A stretch of DNA of 35,992 bases. It comes from a virus. The stretch is from the IMG/VR virus record IMGVR_UViG_3300034111_000140, positions 1-35,992 of that record; one strand, 5' to 3'. The notes beneath the pieces were generated by a model. The model did no database searches, was not told the DNA's origin, and saw only the letters and a program-made list of their open reading frames with translations. A program made the position numbers and the translations under genes. Positions 18,891 through 26,159 of this stretch are shown in pieces. Each line of letters begins with the position of its first letter. Within the stretch, counting starts at the first letter, position 1.

Positions 18891-19112
18891 CTACACTGGT
18901 ACTCCTTGTCTAATTCGATTAGGATGTTCACGCTCTAACCAGAAGCAGCGTAACTGTCCATGCTCATCCTTTGCTACGAAGCCATCCCACTTAGAGTGCT
19001 TGGTGCTATAGTTGTTGCACTCAATGTGTTCTAACATGTGTCGGTATTCGTTACCAGCAAATCCTGCTGTCAATCCTAAACAGAAGCTTAATAATATTAT
19101 AGCATTCTTCAT
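18891..19112 (-). CDS. Small protein with N-terminal membrane or signal segment (73 aa)
   Basis: Residues 2-19 (KNAIILLSFCLGLTAGFAG) form a signal peptide or membrane anchor. The rest is polar with two Cys (HIECNNYSTKHS, QLRCFWLEREHPN) and would lie in the periplasm. The ATG overlaps the preceding stop. A 62-base gap separates it from the polymerase start. Function unknown; an envelope role such as superinfection exclusion is possible but unproven. Confidence 0.65.
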   Translation of the reverse strand: MKNAIILLSFCLGLTAGFAGNEYRHMLEHIECNNYSTKHSKWDGFVAKDEHGQLRCFWLEREHPNRIRQGVPV

Positions 19113-19582
19113 AAGATTAAATCCTCTATTGGTTTTAACTGTGCTTGTGGTAGCATATACGAAGGATGAGAATGTTCTTCATTTAATACAGCAACTTTAA
19201 ATAAATCCTCACCACTAATCCACCCACGAATTAATCCTCCTAAATCATCCACTACAGTTTGTATATAATAATCACAAGGATTTTTCTTATGATACATTGT
19301 AACATAAATGTTGCCTAGTTTATTTCGAGTAGCTTTTACATCAATTGATTTTCCTTTAATCCATAAATCAACTGGATTTTTACGCTCATTCAGTGTGAAG
19401 TCTGGCATTAAATTTAAATACTTTGCAACAATAAACTCTCCTTTAAAACCATCTATGTCCATGTCGTAGGGATTCTGTTTACTTACCTGTCGATCTACAT
19501 TGAACTGCATTGCATTCTTTCTACGCATTGTTCCGAAGTATTCACAGATAAATAATTCCTGCCTACTTAGATCGATTCTCAT
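19109..19582 (-). CDS. Putative PD-(D/E)XK nuclease-like protein (157 aa)
   Basis: GFKGEFIVAKYL (Glu near residue 49), PVDLWIKGKSIDVKATRN and NIYVTMYHKK form the core pattern of a PD-(D/E)XK nuclease: an acidic helix, a strand with Asp, then DVK (Asp80 and Lys82), and another strand. Small members of this superfamily act as Holliday-junction or restriction-type nucleases. The C-terminal half (DDLGGLIRGWISGEDLFKVA) is typical of single-domain members. It differs in sequence from the nuclease at 15162-15506, so the phage has two. The start is uncertain; Met19 is an alternative. Confidence 0.7.
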   Translation of the reverse strand: MRIDLSRQELFICEYFGTMRRKNAMQFNVDRQVSKQNPYDMDIDGFKGEFIVAKYLNLMPDFTLNERKNPVDLWIKGKSIDVKATRNKLGNIYVTMYHKKNPCDYYIQTVVDDLGGLIRGWISGEDLFKVAVLNEEHSHPSYMLPQAQLKPIEDLIL

Positions 19583-21970: not shown

Positions 21971-22006
21971 CTCCTAAGTTTAGCTTCTAAGTTTAACTCC
22001 TAAGTA
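21971..22006 (-). repeat. Three tandem 13-nt repeats in the leader, each with an SD-like core
   Basis: Plus-strand copies start at 21971, 21984 and 21997 (CTCCTAAGTT, CTTCTAAGTT, CTCCTAAGTA). In the leftward RNA they read ACTTAGGAG, ACTTAGAAG, ACTTAGGAG, the last being the Shine-Dalgarno of the 53-aa gene. Related copies occur in the rightward leader at 26079-26109. Confidence 0.75.
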
Positions 22007-22054
22007 CATACTATATAAAATACTTACTATATAAATACTATTAAGTATATAGTA
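22005..22054. repeat. Direct repeats and palindrome around the start of the replication promoter
   Basis: TACATACTATATAAA (22005-22019) and TACTTACTATATAAA (22021-22035) are direct repeats with a 16-base period and one mismatch. TACTAT at 22036-22041 and ATAGTA at 22049-22054 form an inverted repeat that runs into the -10 element. This is the layout expected of an operator, but no regulator is identified. Confidence 0.55.
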
Positions 22055-22079
22055 TAGCATGCTTAGTAATCGTTGTCAA
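22051..22079 (-). promoter_or_regulatory. Leftward promoter of the replication block
   Basis: On the minus strand: TTGACA (22079-22074), a 17-base spacer, and TATACT (22056-22051) preceded by TGC (extended -10). The predicted start is near 22044, giving a leader of about 80 bases before the 53-aa gene and the primase-helicase. The -35 overlaps the last codons of the zinc-finger gene upstream. Confidence 0.85.
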
Positions 22080-22299
22080 CCCTATTATCAATGCGACTAA
22101 AAGAATCATACTCATTGTGGTCTAAGTCTTCCTCTTCGTAGTCTTCTTCATCATACAAGTCTGTTCTTTCGTATGTTAGTAAGTCATCACTTATAGTAGC
22201 GTAACATTTATTACACATGTCTAAGTATTCATTTGTATGTACACTCTTACGAGTGGCTTCAAAATCAGACAACATTTTATTACAGCAGTAGCATCTCAT
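22063..22299 (-). CDS. Small zinc-finger protein (78 aa)
   Basis: MRCYCCNKML carries one cysteine cluster and MCNKCYATI the second (Cys29, Cys32), about 25 residues apart, forming a probable zinc ribbon. The spacing and the sequence between (FEATRKSVHTNEYLD) match small phage zinc-finger proteins. The C-terminal half is very acidic (DEEDYEEEDLDHNEYD), which could mimic DNA or bind a host protein. The ATG overlaps the preceding stop. It is the last gene of the early cluster before the replication promoter. Confidence 0.8.
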   Translation of the reverse strand: MRCYCCNKMLSDFEATRKSVHTNEYLDMCNKCYATISDDLLTYERTDLYDEEDYEEEDLDHNEYDSFSRIDNRVDNDY

Positions 22300-22487
22300 A
22301 TTAGTGCATCTCCTAAAATTTTATAAGCCCAATTAAATTTATTGTCAACTGTTTTCTTCTTCTCCATCATAAGTACTTGAATCTTAAAGCTTTTATCTAG
22401 TCTTAGGAATCTCTCAGCCTCTTCCTTATAACCAAATATTCTAACAACTGAACCATCATAATCTAAAATCTTATATAGCTTTTTCAT
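22296..22487 (-). CDS. Small hypothetical protein (63 aa)
   Basis: The frame is open further upstream, but Met at 22487 has GGAG seven bases before it and an ATGA overlap with the previous gene. The product MKKLYKILDYDGSVVRIFG continues with YKEEAERFLRLDKSFKIQ, a strand-strand-helix arrangement seen in small phage proteins. Function unknown. Confidence 0.7.
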   Translation of the reverse strand: MKKLYKILDYDGSVVRIFGYKEEAERFLRLDKSFKIQVLMMEKKKTVDNKFNWAYKILGDALI

Positions 22488-22609
22488 TGCAGTACTCCGT
22501 ATAAGTAACAAGATAATTCTAACCCGATATAGTATAACACATGTCCACCAAAGTAAGCAAGTGCAAACCATAAAATATATTTAATGTACTTGTCTTCGTT
22601 GTCTATCAT
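22484..22609 (-). CDS. Small membrane protein (41 aa)
   Basis: ATG at 22609-22607 with GGAAGGGA upstream; TGA at 22486-22484 overlaps the next ATG. The product MIDNEDKYIKYILWFALAYF continues GGHVLYYIGLELSCYLYG. Residues about 9-28 form a membrane segment, with a second weaker hydrophobic stretch. Coupled starts and stops on both sides support a real gene. Function unknown. Confidence 0.62.
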   Translation of the reverse strand: MIDNEDKYIKYILWFALAYFGGHVLYYIGLELSCYLYGVLQ

Positions 22610-22680
22610 AAGTCCCTTCCAATGTAGTAAGTTAAGCATACCCAAATCAATATAATAATATCTTTATAATCAATCTCCAT
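22606..22680 (-). CDS. Very small membrane peptide (24 aa)
   Basis: ATG at 22680-22678 lies inside the last codons of the preceding gene, and TGA at 22608-22606 overlaps the next ATG. The peptide MEIDYKDIIILIWVCLTYYI ends GRDL and is almost entirely one membrane segment. There is no Shine-Dalgarno, so translation would depend on coupling. Its exact fit in an ATGA chain and its composition support it, but its size keeps confidence moderate. Confidence 0.45.
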   Translation of the reverse strand: MEIDYKDIIILIWVCLTYYIGRDL

Positions 22681-22945
22681 CGGCATAGCCTCTAGCGACA
22701 TCCCTCCAATAGTTTAGGACTTTATCCTTTACTTCCTGTGGTGCTAGATTAAATGGAATCTCCTCGAATTCAGTACCAATATAGCCTGTCTCAGATAATC
22801 CTTCATACCATTGTGCGTCATCCTTCCAATAGAATTGTCCCTCAGGATCTTCTACCATGTTATGGATACGCTCCTCAATTAATTCCTCATCGAAGTCCCC
22901 ATCCTCAGGCTCATAGTAGCTATCGTTATAGTATCCGTTATTCAT
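22670..22945 (-). CDS. Acidic hypothetical protein (91 aa)
   Basis: The first third is very acidic and Tyr-rich (YYEPEDGDFDEELIEERIHN), followed by YWKDDAQWYEG and a C-terminal helix (QEVKDKVLNYWRDVARGYADG). Its start overlaps the preceding stop by one base. The high negative charge is typical of early phage proteins that bind host factors or mimic DNA, but no family is recognised. Confidence 0.72.
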   Translation of the reverse strand: MNNGYYNDSYYEPEDGDFDEELIEERIHNMVEDPEGQFYWKDDAQWYEGLSETGYIGTEFEEIPFNLAPQEVKDKVLNYWRDVARGYADGD

Positions 22946-23127
22946 TATACATTCTCCAATATATCACGATTATATTTAACAGTTAACTGCTCATCTGTCC
23001 ATTTATTGAATCCACCTTCAGCAAAGAATTCTGTAATGTCATCAATAATAAGTTCAATAGAATCGTTATCAAAAACCCAGTACAATTCTTGTTTAGTTAA
23101 CTCTTTAATCATGTGTTCTCTATTCAT
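22945..23127 (-). CDS. Small hypothetical protein (60 aa)
   Basis: A GTG at 23166 opens the frame, but ATG at 23127 has AGGAGG five bases upstream, so that start is chosen. The product MNREHMIKELTKQELYWVFD continues NDSIELIIDDITEFFAEGG, a helical acidic protein. I recognise similar small early proteins in phages (MTKQELYW..DND) but no function is known. Confidence 0.72.
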   Translation of the reverse strand: MNREHMIKELTKQELYWVFDNDSIELIIDDITEFFAEGGFNKWTDEQLTVKYNRDILENV

Positions 23128-23152
23128 ATATTCCTCCTCAATTAATAATTGT

Positions 23153-23326
23153 TTAAGCTTGCCCACGTTCTAGATCCTCCAGGAATTCAATGACAGAATC
23201 AATACAATCTCCAACAGTAAATATTGTACCATCATTATCCTTAGGTTTGTTTTTAATCTTAGCAGATAAGACATTACGAATATCATACATGTCTAATAGT
23301 GCTGAGCTAATCATTTCTTTATTCAT
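23153..23326 (-). CDS. Small hypothetical protein (57 aa)
   Basis: The frame is open to 23353, but ATG 23326 has GGGGAGGAG close upstream and overlaps the preceding stop (TAATG). The product has MISSALLDMYDIRNVLSAKI and then FTVGDCIDSVIEFLEDLERG, mainly helical. It belongs to the run of small early genes; function unknown. Confidence 0.68.
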   Translation of the reverse strand: MNKEMISSALLDMYDIRNVLSAKIKNKPKDNDGTIFTVGDCIDSVIEFLEDLERGQA

Positions 23327-23475
23327 TACTCCTCCCCTAATTCGTACTGACAATAATCTGCTACCCCTCTATCATACCCTAATTTATATCTATGATGCAT
23401 CTCCTCATCCTCATAAGGGTTATTATAAATTCCTTCTGATCTGCCATCAAAATATCCTCTAGCGTATTCGTACAT
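23326..23475 (-). CDS. Small hypothetical protein (49 aa)
   Basis: ATG at 23475-23473 with GAGAGGA upstream; TAA at 23328-23326 overlaps the next start. The product MYEYARGYFDGRSEGIYNNP continues with MHHRYKLGYDRGVADYC, a RGYFDGR...YKxGYDRGxxDY pattern common to small phage proteins and thought to form a helical hairpin. Function unknown. Confidence 0.68.
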   Translation of the reverse strand: MYEYARGYFDGRSEGIYNNPYEDEEMHHRYKLGYDRGVADYCQYELGEE

Positions 23476-23476
23476 A

Positions 23477-23737
23477 TTATCCTCTCAAATAATCTAATCG
23501 TTGGTAAGTCTCCATATCAGTATACCCTGATTCGCTTATACGATATAGTGTACATAAGTATCGCTTAGGATCTGTCTCATCAATCCAGATATTAATATCT
23601 ATTGTACCATCCCAAGCATTCCAATAGTCTTCTAAGATAATGTCTACCTCTTCGGGTTTATGAGTGTCTTTAATTCCCTCAATCAAACCTCTAACGTATG
23701 CTTTAATCTCTTTTAATTCGTTATCGTCTATATTCAT
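23477..23737 (-). CDS. Hypothetical protein (86 aa)
   Basis: A helical N-terminus (ELKEIKAYVRGLIEGIKDTH) is followed by acidic beta-rich sequence (IILEDYWNAWDGTIDINIWI, KRYLCTLYRI) and YTDMETYQRL. It is compact, with no known catalytic motif. It is placed one base after the cysteine-protease-like gene and is probably co-translated. The family is not named. Confidence 0.72.
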   Translation of the reverse strand: MNIDDNELKEIKAYVRGLIEGIKDTHKPEEVDIILEDYWNAWDGTIDINIWIDETDPKRYLCTLYRISESGYTDMETYQRLDYLRG

Positions 23738-23738
23738 G

Positions 23739-24161
23739 TTAAGCTATCCTATAAAAATGTTTTACTCTAGCCCTTGGGTTTGGCTCGTGGTTATCATACC
23801 ATACCCCATCAATTAAAGCTAGAGCATGATTAGATTTTACCACAATATATCTACCCTTAGGGAATAGTTTAGCGAACTTCTCCAATGTCATATTCAAATA
23901 AGTAGGCATCCTCCAATTACCCCTTACTTTAATGACATCCTCCTCATTCTCTATATTGTAATCCTTCTCGGCATTCATTAGCCAATTGATAGAGCATGAC
24001 ATCATAAGAGTAGAGCATCCCCTACCATGTACCCTCCCGAATGCCTTATAGACCTTATAGACATCATAATAGGGTATATCCATTGTCAAAGCAGTAGCAT
24101 TCAAGGCACAACAATTACGATCTTCACCTTTAATATGAGCTATTTTATTCACATATTCCAC
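23739..24161 (-). CDS. Papain-like cysteine-protease-type protein (140 aa)
   Basis: The N-terminus EDRNCCALNATALTMDIPYY places a Cys (Cys17 or Cys18) at the start of a helix, as in papain-like folds. The C-terminus has GRYIVVKSNHALALIDGVWY followed by Asp/Asn (DNHEP), with His112 and Asp123/Asn124 in the expected order. This Cys-His-Asp/Asn layout and the DVYKVYKAFGR helix resemble small phage proteins that I believe are NlpC/C39-like peptidases. The substrate is unknown; its place in the early block suggests action on a host protein rather than the cell wall. Activity is inferred. Confidence 0.7.
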   Translation of the reverse strand: MEYVNKIAHIKGEDRNCCALNATALTMDIPYYDVYKVYKAFGRVHGRGCSTLMMSCSINWLMNAEKDYNIENEEDVIKVRGNWRMPTYLNMTLEKFAKLFPKGRYIVVKSNHALALIDGVWYDNHEPNPRARVKHFYRIA

Positions 24162-24173
24162 AAGTAATCCCTC

Positions 24174-24500
24174 CTAAGTATTGTATAAGTTTAATTCATT
24201 CATATGTAATTTGTCAACGATTTTCTTATAAACTTCTGCTTTACTTTTATAGTAATGGTAATCTCTATCACCTTTTCTAAAGTTTTCCCACGTATTACTT
24301 TGCTTATTGCTTAATATATCCCTTATCAAGCTAGTATCTTCATAATGAGACTTAAACCCATGAATATTGTAATGAGCGATAAACCCTGAGCATAGATAGA
24401 GATACTTATAACCCCTACTATTAAGCTTACTAATATCTGAGCATGCCTTAACTACATTTTTAACAATAAGATCCTGCTCTTTTAATGTCAATGCTTCCAT
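24174..24500 (-). CDS. Conserved hypothetical phage protein (108 aa)
   Basis: The product includes SDISKLNSRGYKYLYLCSGF then IAHYNIHGFKSHY, NTWENFRKGDRDYHYYKSKA and EVYKKIVDKL. I recognise this pattern from other phages, always without a function. It is helical and Tyr-rich, with no zinc or nuclease motif. It lies between the GP88-like and protease-like genes of the early block. A ribosome binding site (AAGGAG) precedes the ATG. Confidence 0.75.
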   Translation of the reverse strand: MEALTLKEQDLIVKNVVKACSDISKLNSRGYKYLYLCSGFIAHYNIHGFKSHYEDTSLIRDILSNKQSNTWENFRKGDRDYHYYKSKAEVYKKIVDKLHMNELNLYNT

Positions 24501-24518
24501 GTTTAGATTCTCCTTAGT

Positions 24519-25160
24519 TTATTTAGTTGCAATAATTTTAATTACTTTAGCCATCTTAACTCCATGGGCTTTATATGCTATTACTTTCACGTCCTTATCA
24601 TAGCAAGCCCGACATCCTGAGCATTTGCCTTCATGCTCATAAGCTTTACATTCTAGAGCCCCTTCGGGTACTGTATCGCTAAAAATTGTGCTAGTAGTTT
24701 GTCCGTTAATGATCTCACCTGTAACACTATCACTAGAGAATCTTACTACTACATTATCTAAAGCCATCATAGCGTCAATGGTATGCTGAAATTTAATAAA
24801 TTTATGCATGCGAGTAGGTAGCCAATGCTTAACCCATGGAGTAGCTTTCATTACTGCTAGAATCTTATTGGCTAAGCTTAGGTCATACATGTCGCCACTA
24901 TCGAACCATCTAAAATACCTACTAGAGTCTAAAGCTTTTACCATGTCATTAACCCAATCGTCCCTCTTCCAATCTTCCCTATTAAATTCCCTTGGCTTCT
25001 TTACATTAGCAAACCTGTAATTACCTGTTGTTGCATAGCAGCCTTGGCAAGCTGGTACTAGATTACCTGTACTGTCTTTAGATCCTGGGCAAGTGTCTAA
25101 AGCTTGAAGACTCCAAGATAAAATTCCATCTAGCTTGCTTGTTTTGCTTAGTTTAATCAT
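24519..25160 (-). CDS. GP88-family protein, cysteine-rich (213 aa)
   Basis: Met at 25160 has GGAGGG upstream and is preferred to the Met 15 bases earlier, which overlaps that site. The motifs LSKTSKLDGILSWSL, DTCPGS, ACQGCYATTGNYR, FRWFDSGDMYDL and HWLPTRMHKF match the GP88 family (mycobacteriophage gene product 88 type). Three Cys near the N-terminus (TCPG...CQGCYA), plus a second cluster near the C-terminus (CKAYEHEGKCSGCRACYD), could hold iron-sulfur or zinc. The biochemical role of the family is unknown to me. Its early position suggests host takeover. Confidence 0.8.
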   Translation of the reverse strand: MIKLSKTSKLDGILSWSLQALDTCPGSKDSTGNLVPACQGCYATTGNYRFANVKKPREFNREDWKRDDWVNDMVKALDSSRYFRWFDSGDMYDLSLANKILAVMKATPWVKHWLPTRMHKFIKFQHTIDAMMALDNVVVRFSSDSVTGEIINGQTTSTIFSDTVPEGALECKAYEHEGKCSGCRACYDKDVKVIAYKAHGVKMAKVIKIIATK

Positions 25161-25175
25161 TTTTAAACCCTCCAT

Positions 25176-25271
25176 TTATAGATAGACTGTAACGTATACG
25201 ATTAGACCTGTAAAGCTTGCGAGTAATAACCCTGTATTGAATAGGCTTATTAGTTTATCTGATTGTCTCAT
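25176..25271 (-). CDS. Very small membrane protein (31 aa)
   Basis: ATG at 25271-25269 with AGGAGGG seven bases upstream; TAA at 25178-25176. The product MRQSDKLISLFNTGLLLASF continues TGLIVYVTVYL, one membrane segment after a short basic N-terminus. The strong ribosome binding site favours a real gene. Function unknown. Confidence 0.58.
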   Translation of the reverse strand: MRQSDKLISLFNTGLLLASFTGLIVYVTVYL

Positions 25272-25284
25272 GGTTTAACCCTCC

Positions 25285-25476
25285 TTAGTTTATATAAATA
25301 TCAGCGTTACGAACTTCGTATTGTATCATAGTGTTTTCGTCCCAGTTCTCCATCTCACTTAATAGATCTTTTTTGACTGCTTGAAAATAGTGAGAATCAT
25401 CTCTAGTAATGTAAACACTTACGAAAACGTAAACTGCTTTTTTGATATCTTTTCTAAACTGTTTTAATGTATTCAT
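25285..25476 (-). CDS. Small hypothetical protein, first gene of leftward block (63 aa)
   Basis: AAGGAG lies about nine bases before ATG 25476. The product MNTLKQFRKDIKKAVYVFVS continues VYITRDDSHYFQAVKK and ends YEVRNADIYIN: a basic helix followed by strands. It is the first gene downstream of the early promoter at 25510-25539, so it would be made earliest after DNA entry. No family is recognised; a host-acting role is a reasonable guess. Confidence 0.72.
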   Translation of the reverse strand: MNTLKQFRKDIKKAVYVFVSVYITRDDSHYFQAVKKDLLSEMENWDENTMIQYEVRNADIYIN

Positions 25477-25509: not shown

Positions 25510-25539
25510 ACTATAACGGATCAATTCTCAGAATGTCAA
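25510..25539 (-). promoter_or_regulatory. Early leftward promoter
   Basis: On the minus strand: TTGACA (25539-25534), an 18-base spacer, and TATAGT (25515-25510). The predicted start is near 25503, about 27 bases before the first leftward gene. It is divergent from the terminase promoter at 25975-26003. Confidence 0.75.
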
Positions 25540-25974
25540 CAATTATTTTATAGGTACTTTCCCTAATGTACGGATATACAGTAGGTCTATCTAGGTCTCA
25601 TTAGTCTCATGTCTCTAGTAGGTCTCAAATATCTCTCTAGAGTGTGGCGTCTCTCCTCTTACTCTCTAGATTCTAGAATATGCATGCTTAGTTATATAGT
25701 TAGAATCTATTGAGCATGGGGGAGGGGGGTTGCTGTGTTATATTTATAATCAGAACCCTCTAAAACACCTAAAAAGTTAAATTAAGAAGTGCCTAATAAT
25801 TAAGCATATTGATTAAAAATTAAGCAACTAGTCTTCCTAGTAAAATCAAGGAGTTACCTAATAGGGACAGACTCAATAAGACCAAGAAGAAAAGGCTGCT
25901 GCGGAATACGTGCTAGTTTACTGGGTAGACCCGCATAGAAGATGTGCTCCGTAGGCATCATAGTAAAATATTAC
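25540..25974. other. Intergenic control region: candidate origin or packaging site
   Basis: No convincing gene. Contents: TCTCTAG three times (25612, 25634, 25663) mixed with AGGTCT repeats (25582, 25592, 25620); the G-run GGGGGAGGGGGG at 25718-25729; an A/T-rich part with three TTAAGCA/TTAATTAAG-like words (25780-25830); then a more GC-rich island at about 25893-25960 with nested inverted repeats. It lies between divergent promoters and just upstream of the terminase genes. Function is inferred from position. Confidence 0.5.
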
Positions 25975-26003
25975 TTGACAAAGTCTCATAAGTATGGTAT
26001 AAT
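25975..26003 (+). promoter_or_regulatory. Rightward promoter for packaging and head genes
   Basis: TTGACA (25975-25980), a 17-base spacer, and TATAAT (25998-26003) with TG at 25995-25996: a full consensus. It contains TATGGTATAATA as in the other rightward promoters. The leader to the small terminase GTG is about 150 bases long. Confidence 0.88.
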
Positions 26004-26010
26004 AGTTGTA

Positions 26011-26109
26011 CTAAGGAGAAAAAACTGCTTAGCAGTTCCTAAGTAAATACAATATAAAAATCAAATAATATAAAAACTACTTAGTATAACTTAGAAGTAA
26101 ACTTAGAAG
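26011..26109 (+). repeat. Terminase leader: hairpin and ACTTAGAAG repeats
   Basis: AACTGC-TTA-GCAGTT (26023-26037) is a perfect 6-bp hairpin just after CTAAGGAG (26011-26018), an SD-like site with no start codon behind it. ACTTAGTAT (26079-26087), ACTTAGAAG (26089-26097) and ACTTAGAAG (26101-26109) follow, with a fourth copy at 26164-26172 inside the gene start. They resemble the leader repeats at 21971-22006. Confidence 0.6.
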
Positions 26110-26159
26110 AGTAGTAATTTTTAAATGTTAGTCTCTACTTACGTAGGAAAAGGCTTAGA

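Follow-up and report, generated by a model that had tools for sequence, protein, structure and literature searches.

We analyzed a leftward block of 14 open reading frames (ORFs) at positions 25476-22063, minus strand, of the virus record IMGVR_UViG_3300034111_000140 (IMG/VR; 35,992 bases, hereafter the window), which comes from a freshwater phage. The block lies downstream of a sigma70-like promoter (PL, 25510-25539) and, judging from gene content in related phages, consists of two parts: a hypervariable promoter-proximal slot (approximately 25476-22606) and a fixed distal module of three genes (22609-22063). The interpretation that we favor, and regard as reasonably probable, is that the block is an early leftward unit in which the variable slot acts on the host, counter-defense included, and the distal module is regulatory.

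A variable slot and a fixed distal module

The leftward arm of the window contains the block and genes for a primase/helicase, a family A DNA polymerase, an exonuclease, and a B12-type ribonucleotide reductase. The rightward arm begins with terminase genes, likely followed, by order and by comparison with relatives, by portal, scaffold, and capsid genes; the phage looks lytic. The initial annotation, made from the sequence alone, described a leftward run of about 14 small, partly overlapping genes with strong ribosome-binding sites, and this description holds. Each of the 14 ORFs was found on the minus strand; the products are no longer than 108 aa in 12 cases, the exceptions being a GP88-family protein (213 aa, 24519-25160) and a peptidase-like protein (140 aa, 23739-24161). 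Five junctions overlap, by one base between o7 and o8 (at 23326) and between o9 and o10 (at 22945), and by four bases at 22606-22609, 22484-22487, and 22296-22299, and sites of the AGGAG/GGAGG type precede most starts.

Eleven of the 14 ORFs are under purifying selection, with dN/dS values of 0.03 to 0.37 against distinct homologs in related contigs; the weakest case among them is o7 (23326-23475, 49 aa, acidic; dN/dS 0.12), with four homologs only. Two of the remaining ORFs have homologs, namely, o1 (25285-25476, 63 aa; one homolog, 94% identical) and o8 (23153-23326, 57 aa; 19 other phage contigs, 47%-80% identity). For the third, o9 (22945-23127, 60 aa), no homolog was found, and it is considered a putative coding ORF. 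An additional ORF at 21980-22060 was discarded as a coding candidate: the start codon falls on the -10 element of a downstream promoter, P3 (22051-22079), and the dN/dS of 0.44 rests on few changes.

Gene content was compared across nine relatives whose primases are 92%-99% identical to that of the window, and in a wider set of 14 close relatives. The nine retain the small terminase gene and most of the replication genes, and nearly all flanks are kept. Of the eleven promoter-proximal genes, by contrast, ten occur in at most two of the nine relatives, being mostly missing or replaced: o1, o7, o8, and o9 in none; o4 (24174-24500, 108 aa; dN/dS 0.16) and o6 (23477-23737, 86 aa, acidic; dN/dS 0.03) in one each; and o2 (25176-25271, 31 aa; dN/dS 0.37, seven homologs), the peptidase-like gene (dN/dS 0.08), o10 (22670-22945, 91 aa), and o11 (22606-22701, up to 31 aa, with a start that may lie further in; dN/dS 0.16) in two each. 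Six relatives carry the GP88 gene (dN/dS 0.10), and all nine carry o12, o13, and the zinc-finger gene that ends the block; the 14 close relatives show the same pattern. Thus, high gene turnover between conserved flanks was found among closely related genomes. Free exchange of this kind among nearly identical phages commonly marks genes directed against variable host defenses. Across 23 slots, 329 genes fall into 114 families, and a rough gene call on 116 related contigs, distant ones included, yielded 261 protein families, 148 of which were seen once.

Turnover proceeds one gene at a time. The 47-base stretch leading into o9 in the window leads straight into o10 homologs in relatives; o9 is thus inserted exactly at the o10 start. 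In o10 itself, the N-terminus is retained and is joined to differing C-termini. The o1 homolog is the first slot gene of a contig (L169; relatives are designated by L numbers) whose terminase is 67% identical to that of the window, and among the stretches fetched for o8, only L174 shares another tested window protein (GP88, 33% identity).

The distal module comprises o12 (22484-22609, a 41-aa hydrophobic membrane microprotein; dN/dS 0.10), o13 (22296-22487, 63 aa, basic; dN/dS 0.25), and the zinc-finger protein (22063-22299; dN/dS 0.09), which contains a CxxC...CxxC motif and an acidic tail (net charge -14) and weakly matches phrog_10364. Because all three genes are retained in all 14 close relatives, a core regulatory or replication role would suit them better than an arms-race function. 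They run into the second conserved promoter, P3, and the zinc finger is also found in distant relatives and in Methylophilales phages; its presence in distant relatives and its site just before P3 suggest a role in transcription control. The comparison among close relatives that the initial annotation had proposed therefore bore out swapping for the promoter-proximal genes and did not show a uniform block, given the constancy of 22609-22063. As to the host, the likeness of the zinc finger to Methylophilales phages is merely a hint, and an assignment through capsid relatives in genome bins was abandoned, since the bins come from unrelated taxa and look like contamination.

Counter-defense genes in equivalent slots of relatives

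Known counter-defense genes, encoding ArdC and DNA methyltransferases, occupy the same position in relatives. One example is MW202796 (Caudoviricetes sp., Manatee Spring), which shares with the window a divergent terminase followed, on one strand, by GP88 (67% identity), the zinc finger (51%), and the primase. It differs from the window in encoding ArdC between GP88 and the zinc finger; this protein matches PF08401 (E = 2e-26), PF18818 (E = 5e-47), and the "anti-restriction protein" family phrog_7245 (E = 2e-80). An ArdC-like gene is also found in L116, upstream of the zinc finger and primase. In L094, a phrog_757 DNA methyltransferase (E = 1.5e-68) is encoded between o12 and o13, with 4-base overlaps on both sides; homologs are located in the same place in L100 and in similar places in L065 and L067. 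The possibility that the methyltransferase replaced o13 in L094 and L100 was rejected because it sits between o12 and o13.

These antirestriction genes are the strongest available argument for counter-defense functions in the block. The initial annotation, noting that genes next to the first promoter of lytic phages usually serve host takeover and anti-defense, had proposed the block as the best place in the window to seek new inhibitors of host systems; the exchangeable promoter-proximal genes, together with the genes found in the relatives' slots, are consistent with this proposal, but the distal three genes are not, and the anti-defense reading appears to fit the variable genes rather than the conserved ones. 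In the window's own slot, no gene matched a known anti-defense family in Pfam, PHROG, or NCBIfam scans; the NCBIfam scan returned nothing useful. PADLOC, which lists defense proteins, gave only one hit, linking the zinc finger with a Cas8-type profile at 0.009, and this was put down to chance. An Rfam search of the region gave zero matches. Neither did any of the ten block proteins scanned against Pfam and PHROG profiles match a virion-type family, which lends support to the initial reading.

There is a modest chance that the variable genes are instead mainly host-takeover or metabolic modulators, such as inhibitors of transcription, division, or nucleases, with variation that tracks host species rather than defenses. 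The conserved GP88 superfamily and the zinc finger hint at functions in host machinery, and non-defense genes, such as those for a DNA-clamp-like protein and ThyX, are also found in the slots of more distant relatives. However, equivalent slots repeatedly contain ArdC and DNA methyltransferase genes, and genes are exchanged between phages with 97%-99% identical primases, which is quicker than a change of host species would suggest. We infer that counter-defense is the main role of the variable genes, although comparison of small unknown proteins cannot separate it from other forms of host takeover.

Promoters and timing of expression

The dedicated promoter postulated in the initial annotation was corroborated by comparison. 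PL (TTGACA-18-TATAGT, minus strand) matches the consensus at 11 of 12 positions, and in the alignment rows used (the window, L004, and L005) both hexamers are retained at the same place, with one -35 change, despite a diverged spacer, which argues that PL is real. A site with at least 11/12 matches precedes the first block gene in 6 of 17 genomes, and one with at least 10/12 matches in 12 of 17 (window included), compared to 0.9% of shuffles at 11/12. The divergent terminase promoter P+ (25975-26003, plus strand; TTGACA-17-TATAAT, extended -10) is a perfect 12/12 match in all 17 genomes. P3 (minus strand; TTGACA-17-TATACT, extended -10), which overlaps the zinc-finger stop codon and feeds the replication genes, scores 11/12 in 17 of 17, compared to 0.7% of shuffles; these 17 genomes are kin, so that all such counts overstate the evidence. 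In L049, the position of P3 is shifted relative to the zinc-finger stop codon, and P3 is therefore not simply coding sequence.

The claim that the block adjoins the "first promoter" is not supported as stated. With P+ perfect in all 17 genomes and P3 as a third consensus promoter, the promoter type does not tell early from late genes; nor can timing be read from promoter class when P+ fits the consensus better than PL and no RNA polymerase was recognized among the large ORFs of the window. The single-subunit polymerase gene typical of T7-like early regions was found in distant relatives only: L149, L150, L151, L154, and L157, with 45%-48% identical primases, encode a T7-type enzyme upstream of the primase. 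In L151, the order is GP88 (55% identity), a C5 cytosine methylase, the T7-type RNA polymerase, and the primase. In LUZ100, a T7-like phage, the early region ends with this polymerase gene (PMC10134795); the L151 slot, lying between GP88 and the polymerase gene, thus favors early expression by homology of position. The block is most likely transcribed early in infection. It is unlikely that the block is expressed throughout infection, with the real switch residing in the terminase promoter and P3, each trailed by operator-like repeats. The near-perfect consensus of both promoters in all 17 genomes is compatible with such a switch, as are the palindromes found just after P3 in many relatives; against it stands the location of the block, which precedes the replication genes and, in L151, the polymerase gene.

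Several elements were observed around these promoters. A palindrome of approximately CTACTWAGTAG, located just past the P3 -10 element at 22038-22048, is perfect in twelve relatives and is mismatched at two positions in the window. The terminase leader holds a near copy (26077-26087), and none was found around PL in the window. The palindrome may be an operator; the genomes compared are kin. In the leader of the small terminase gene (26089-26112), a 12-base repeat of the AACTTAGAAGTA type occurs twice; L087 has about six tandem copies, and similar ACTTAGRAG repeats occur downstream of P3. A hairpin at 26019-26038 (AACTGC-TAA-GCAGTT) precedes a run of T's on the minus strand and might terminate leftward transcription arriving from the terminase side. 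Upstream of P+, the plus-strand stretch TGCGGAATACGTGCTAGTTTACTGGGTAGACCCGCA (25895-25936) is present in several relatives and missing in others, with no Rfam match.

Under the favored interpretation, host RNA polymerase would start at PL soon after entry, just inside the divergent point; single small genes would enter and leave the promoter-proximal slot by recombination; their products would most likely act on host targets, counter-defense among them; and the distal module would most likely help control transcription and the transition into the replication operon at P3. Several points weigh against it: P+ is nearer the consensus and better conserved than PL, the window lacks a recognized RNA polymerase among its large ORFs and a gene with a profile-matched anti-defense function, and a cytosine methyltransferase of MW202796 is also encoded outside the slot. 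Furthermore, small variable genes can equally be selfish or neutral cargo; that the slot is merely a site for such cargo, taking up single genes via short overlaps to little advantage and regardless of expression, is nevertheless very unlikely, since clean 4-base junctions of single-gene insertions and the orphan o9 fit this possibility, but the purifying selection in eleven ORFs and the intact ribosome sites do not.

Individual proteins and comparison with known loci

The protein types named in the initial annotation were all recovered. GP88 matches PF17338 (E = 9e-30; 104.7 bits, cut-off 24.4), and a GP88-superfamily protein is encoded in 22 of 23 slots (none in L137), counting L126 by its resemblance to the L059 protein. 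At this position the superfamily is kept and the subfamily is swapped: L020, L021, L023, L050, and L100 carry the DUF7227 (PF23872) type, established by a Pfam test for L020 (E = 1e-80) and recognized by sequence in the other four. Because L020, L021, and L023 do so despite primases 97%-99% identical to that of the window, the subfamily must have been exchanged. The predicted GP88 model (pLDDT 85) shows alternating strands and helices, with weak fold hits that include the radical SAM enzymes BlsE, QueE, and SkfB (E = 0.07-0.2). The conserved cysteines (C24-x13-C38-x2-C41 and four C-terminal ones) have a spacing unusual for the radical SAM motif; the Radical SAM profile had no Pfam hit in 34 GP88 members, no fold match was significant, and a search of solved structures with the GP88 profile gave chance-level matches only. 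We therefore treat the radical-SAM likeness of the model as a lead only. It is distinctly unlikely that the GP88/DUF7227 position serves as an obligatory slot for an early enzyme, a small iron-sulfur, radical-SAM-like protein that comes in interchangeable subfamilies, is required by nearly every member of the group, and evades defenses by modifying nucleic acid or protein of the host or the phage. The window GP88 shares the Pfam match and conserved cysteines with the GP88, DUF7227, and DUF5131 families, to which the libraries searched assign no function; the alternation of GP88 with DUF7227 at one position was seen here, and a literature search for DUF5131 found nothing.

The peptidase-like protein matches phrog_3754 (profile E = 7e-16), and C17, H111, and D122 are invariant in all 20 sequences of its family. 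In its AF2 model (pLDDT 80), papain-like proteases are among the best fold hits, all weak (E of at least 0.4), and a sequence search of solved structures with the family profile gave chance-level matches only. It is a candidate papain-like cysteine peptidase, 22%-29% identical over most of its length to the phrog_3754 "putative peptidase" of one Pseudomonas phage; that protein belongs to another phage group, and the fold match is not significant. The zinc finger with its acidic tail and the very acidic o10 (net charge -19, pI 4.05) were confirmed, as were three hydrophobic membrane microproteins, o2, o11, and o12. Outside the block, between the polymerase and primase genes, a 157-aa gene (19109-19582) is absent in all nine relatives compared; its product weakly matches DUF5843 and shows, by eye, a D...DxK-like nuclease pattern.

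The stretch that runs from the divergent promoter to the o12-o13-zinc-finger module, both fixed landmarks, can be viewed as a bounded natural gene library, and many freshwater members of this phage group have been sequenced. Because known antirestriction genes share this slot, its unknown genes are well-grounded counter-defense candidates. The comparison also shows which genes to drop from the candidate list: the first candidates are the genes at 25476-22606, with GP88 to be considered in its own right, and the three distal genes probably belong to the core.

The block belongs to a known kind of locus, the hypervariable accessory locus. Accessory genes of such regions in lytic phages have been screened by Silas et al. 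(PMC12373910), and LUZ100 exemplifies a T7-like phage with an early host-takeover region (PMC10134795). Like these regions, the block combines small unknown genes, a host-type promoter, a location upstream of replication genes, and high turnover, with antirestriction genes in the sets of relatives. Unlike them, it adjoins a divergent terminase promoter, with no phage RNA polymerase recognized, and ends in a fixed zinc-finger module that has its own downstream promoter.

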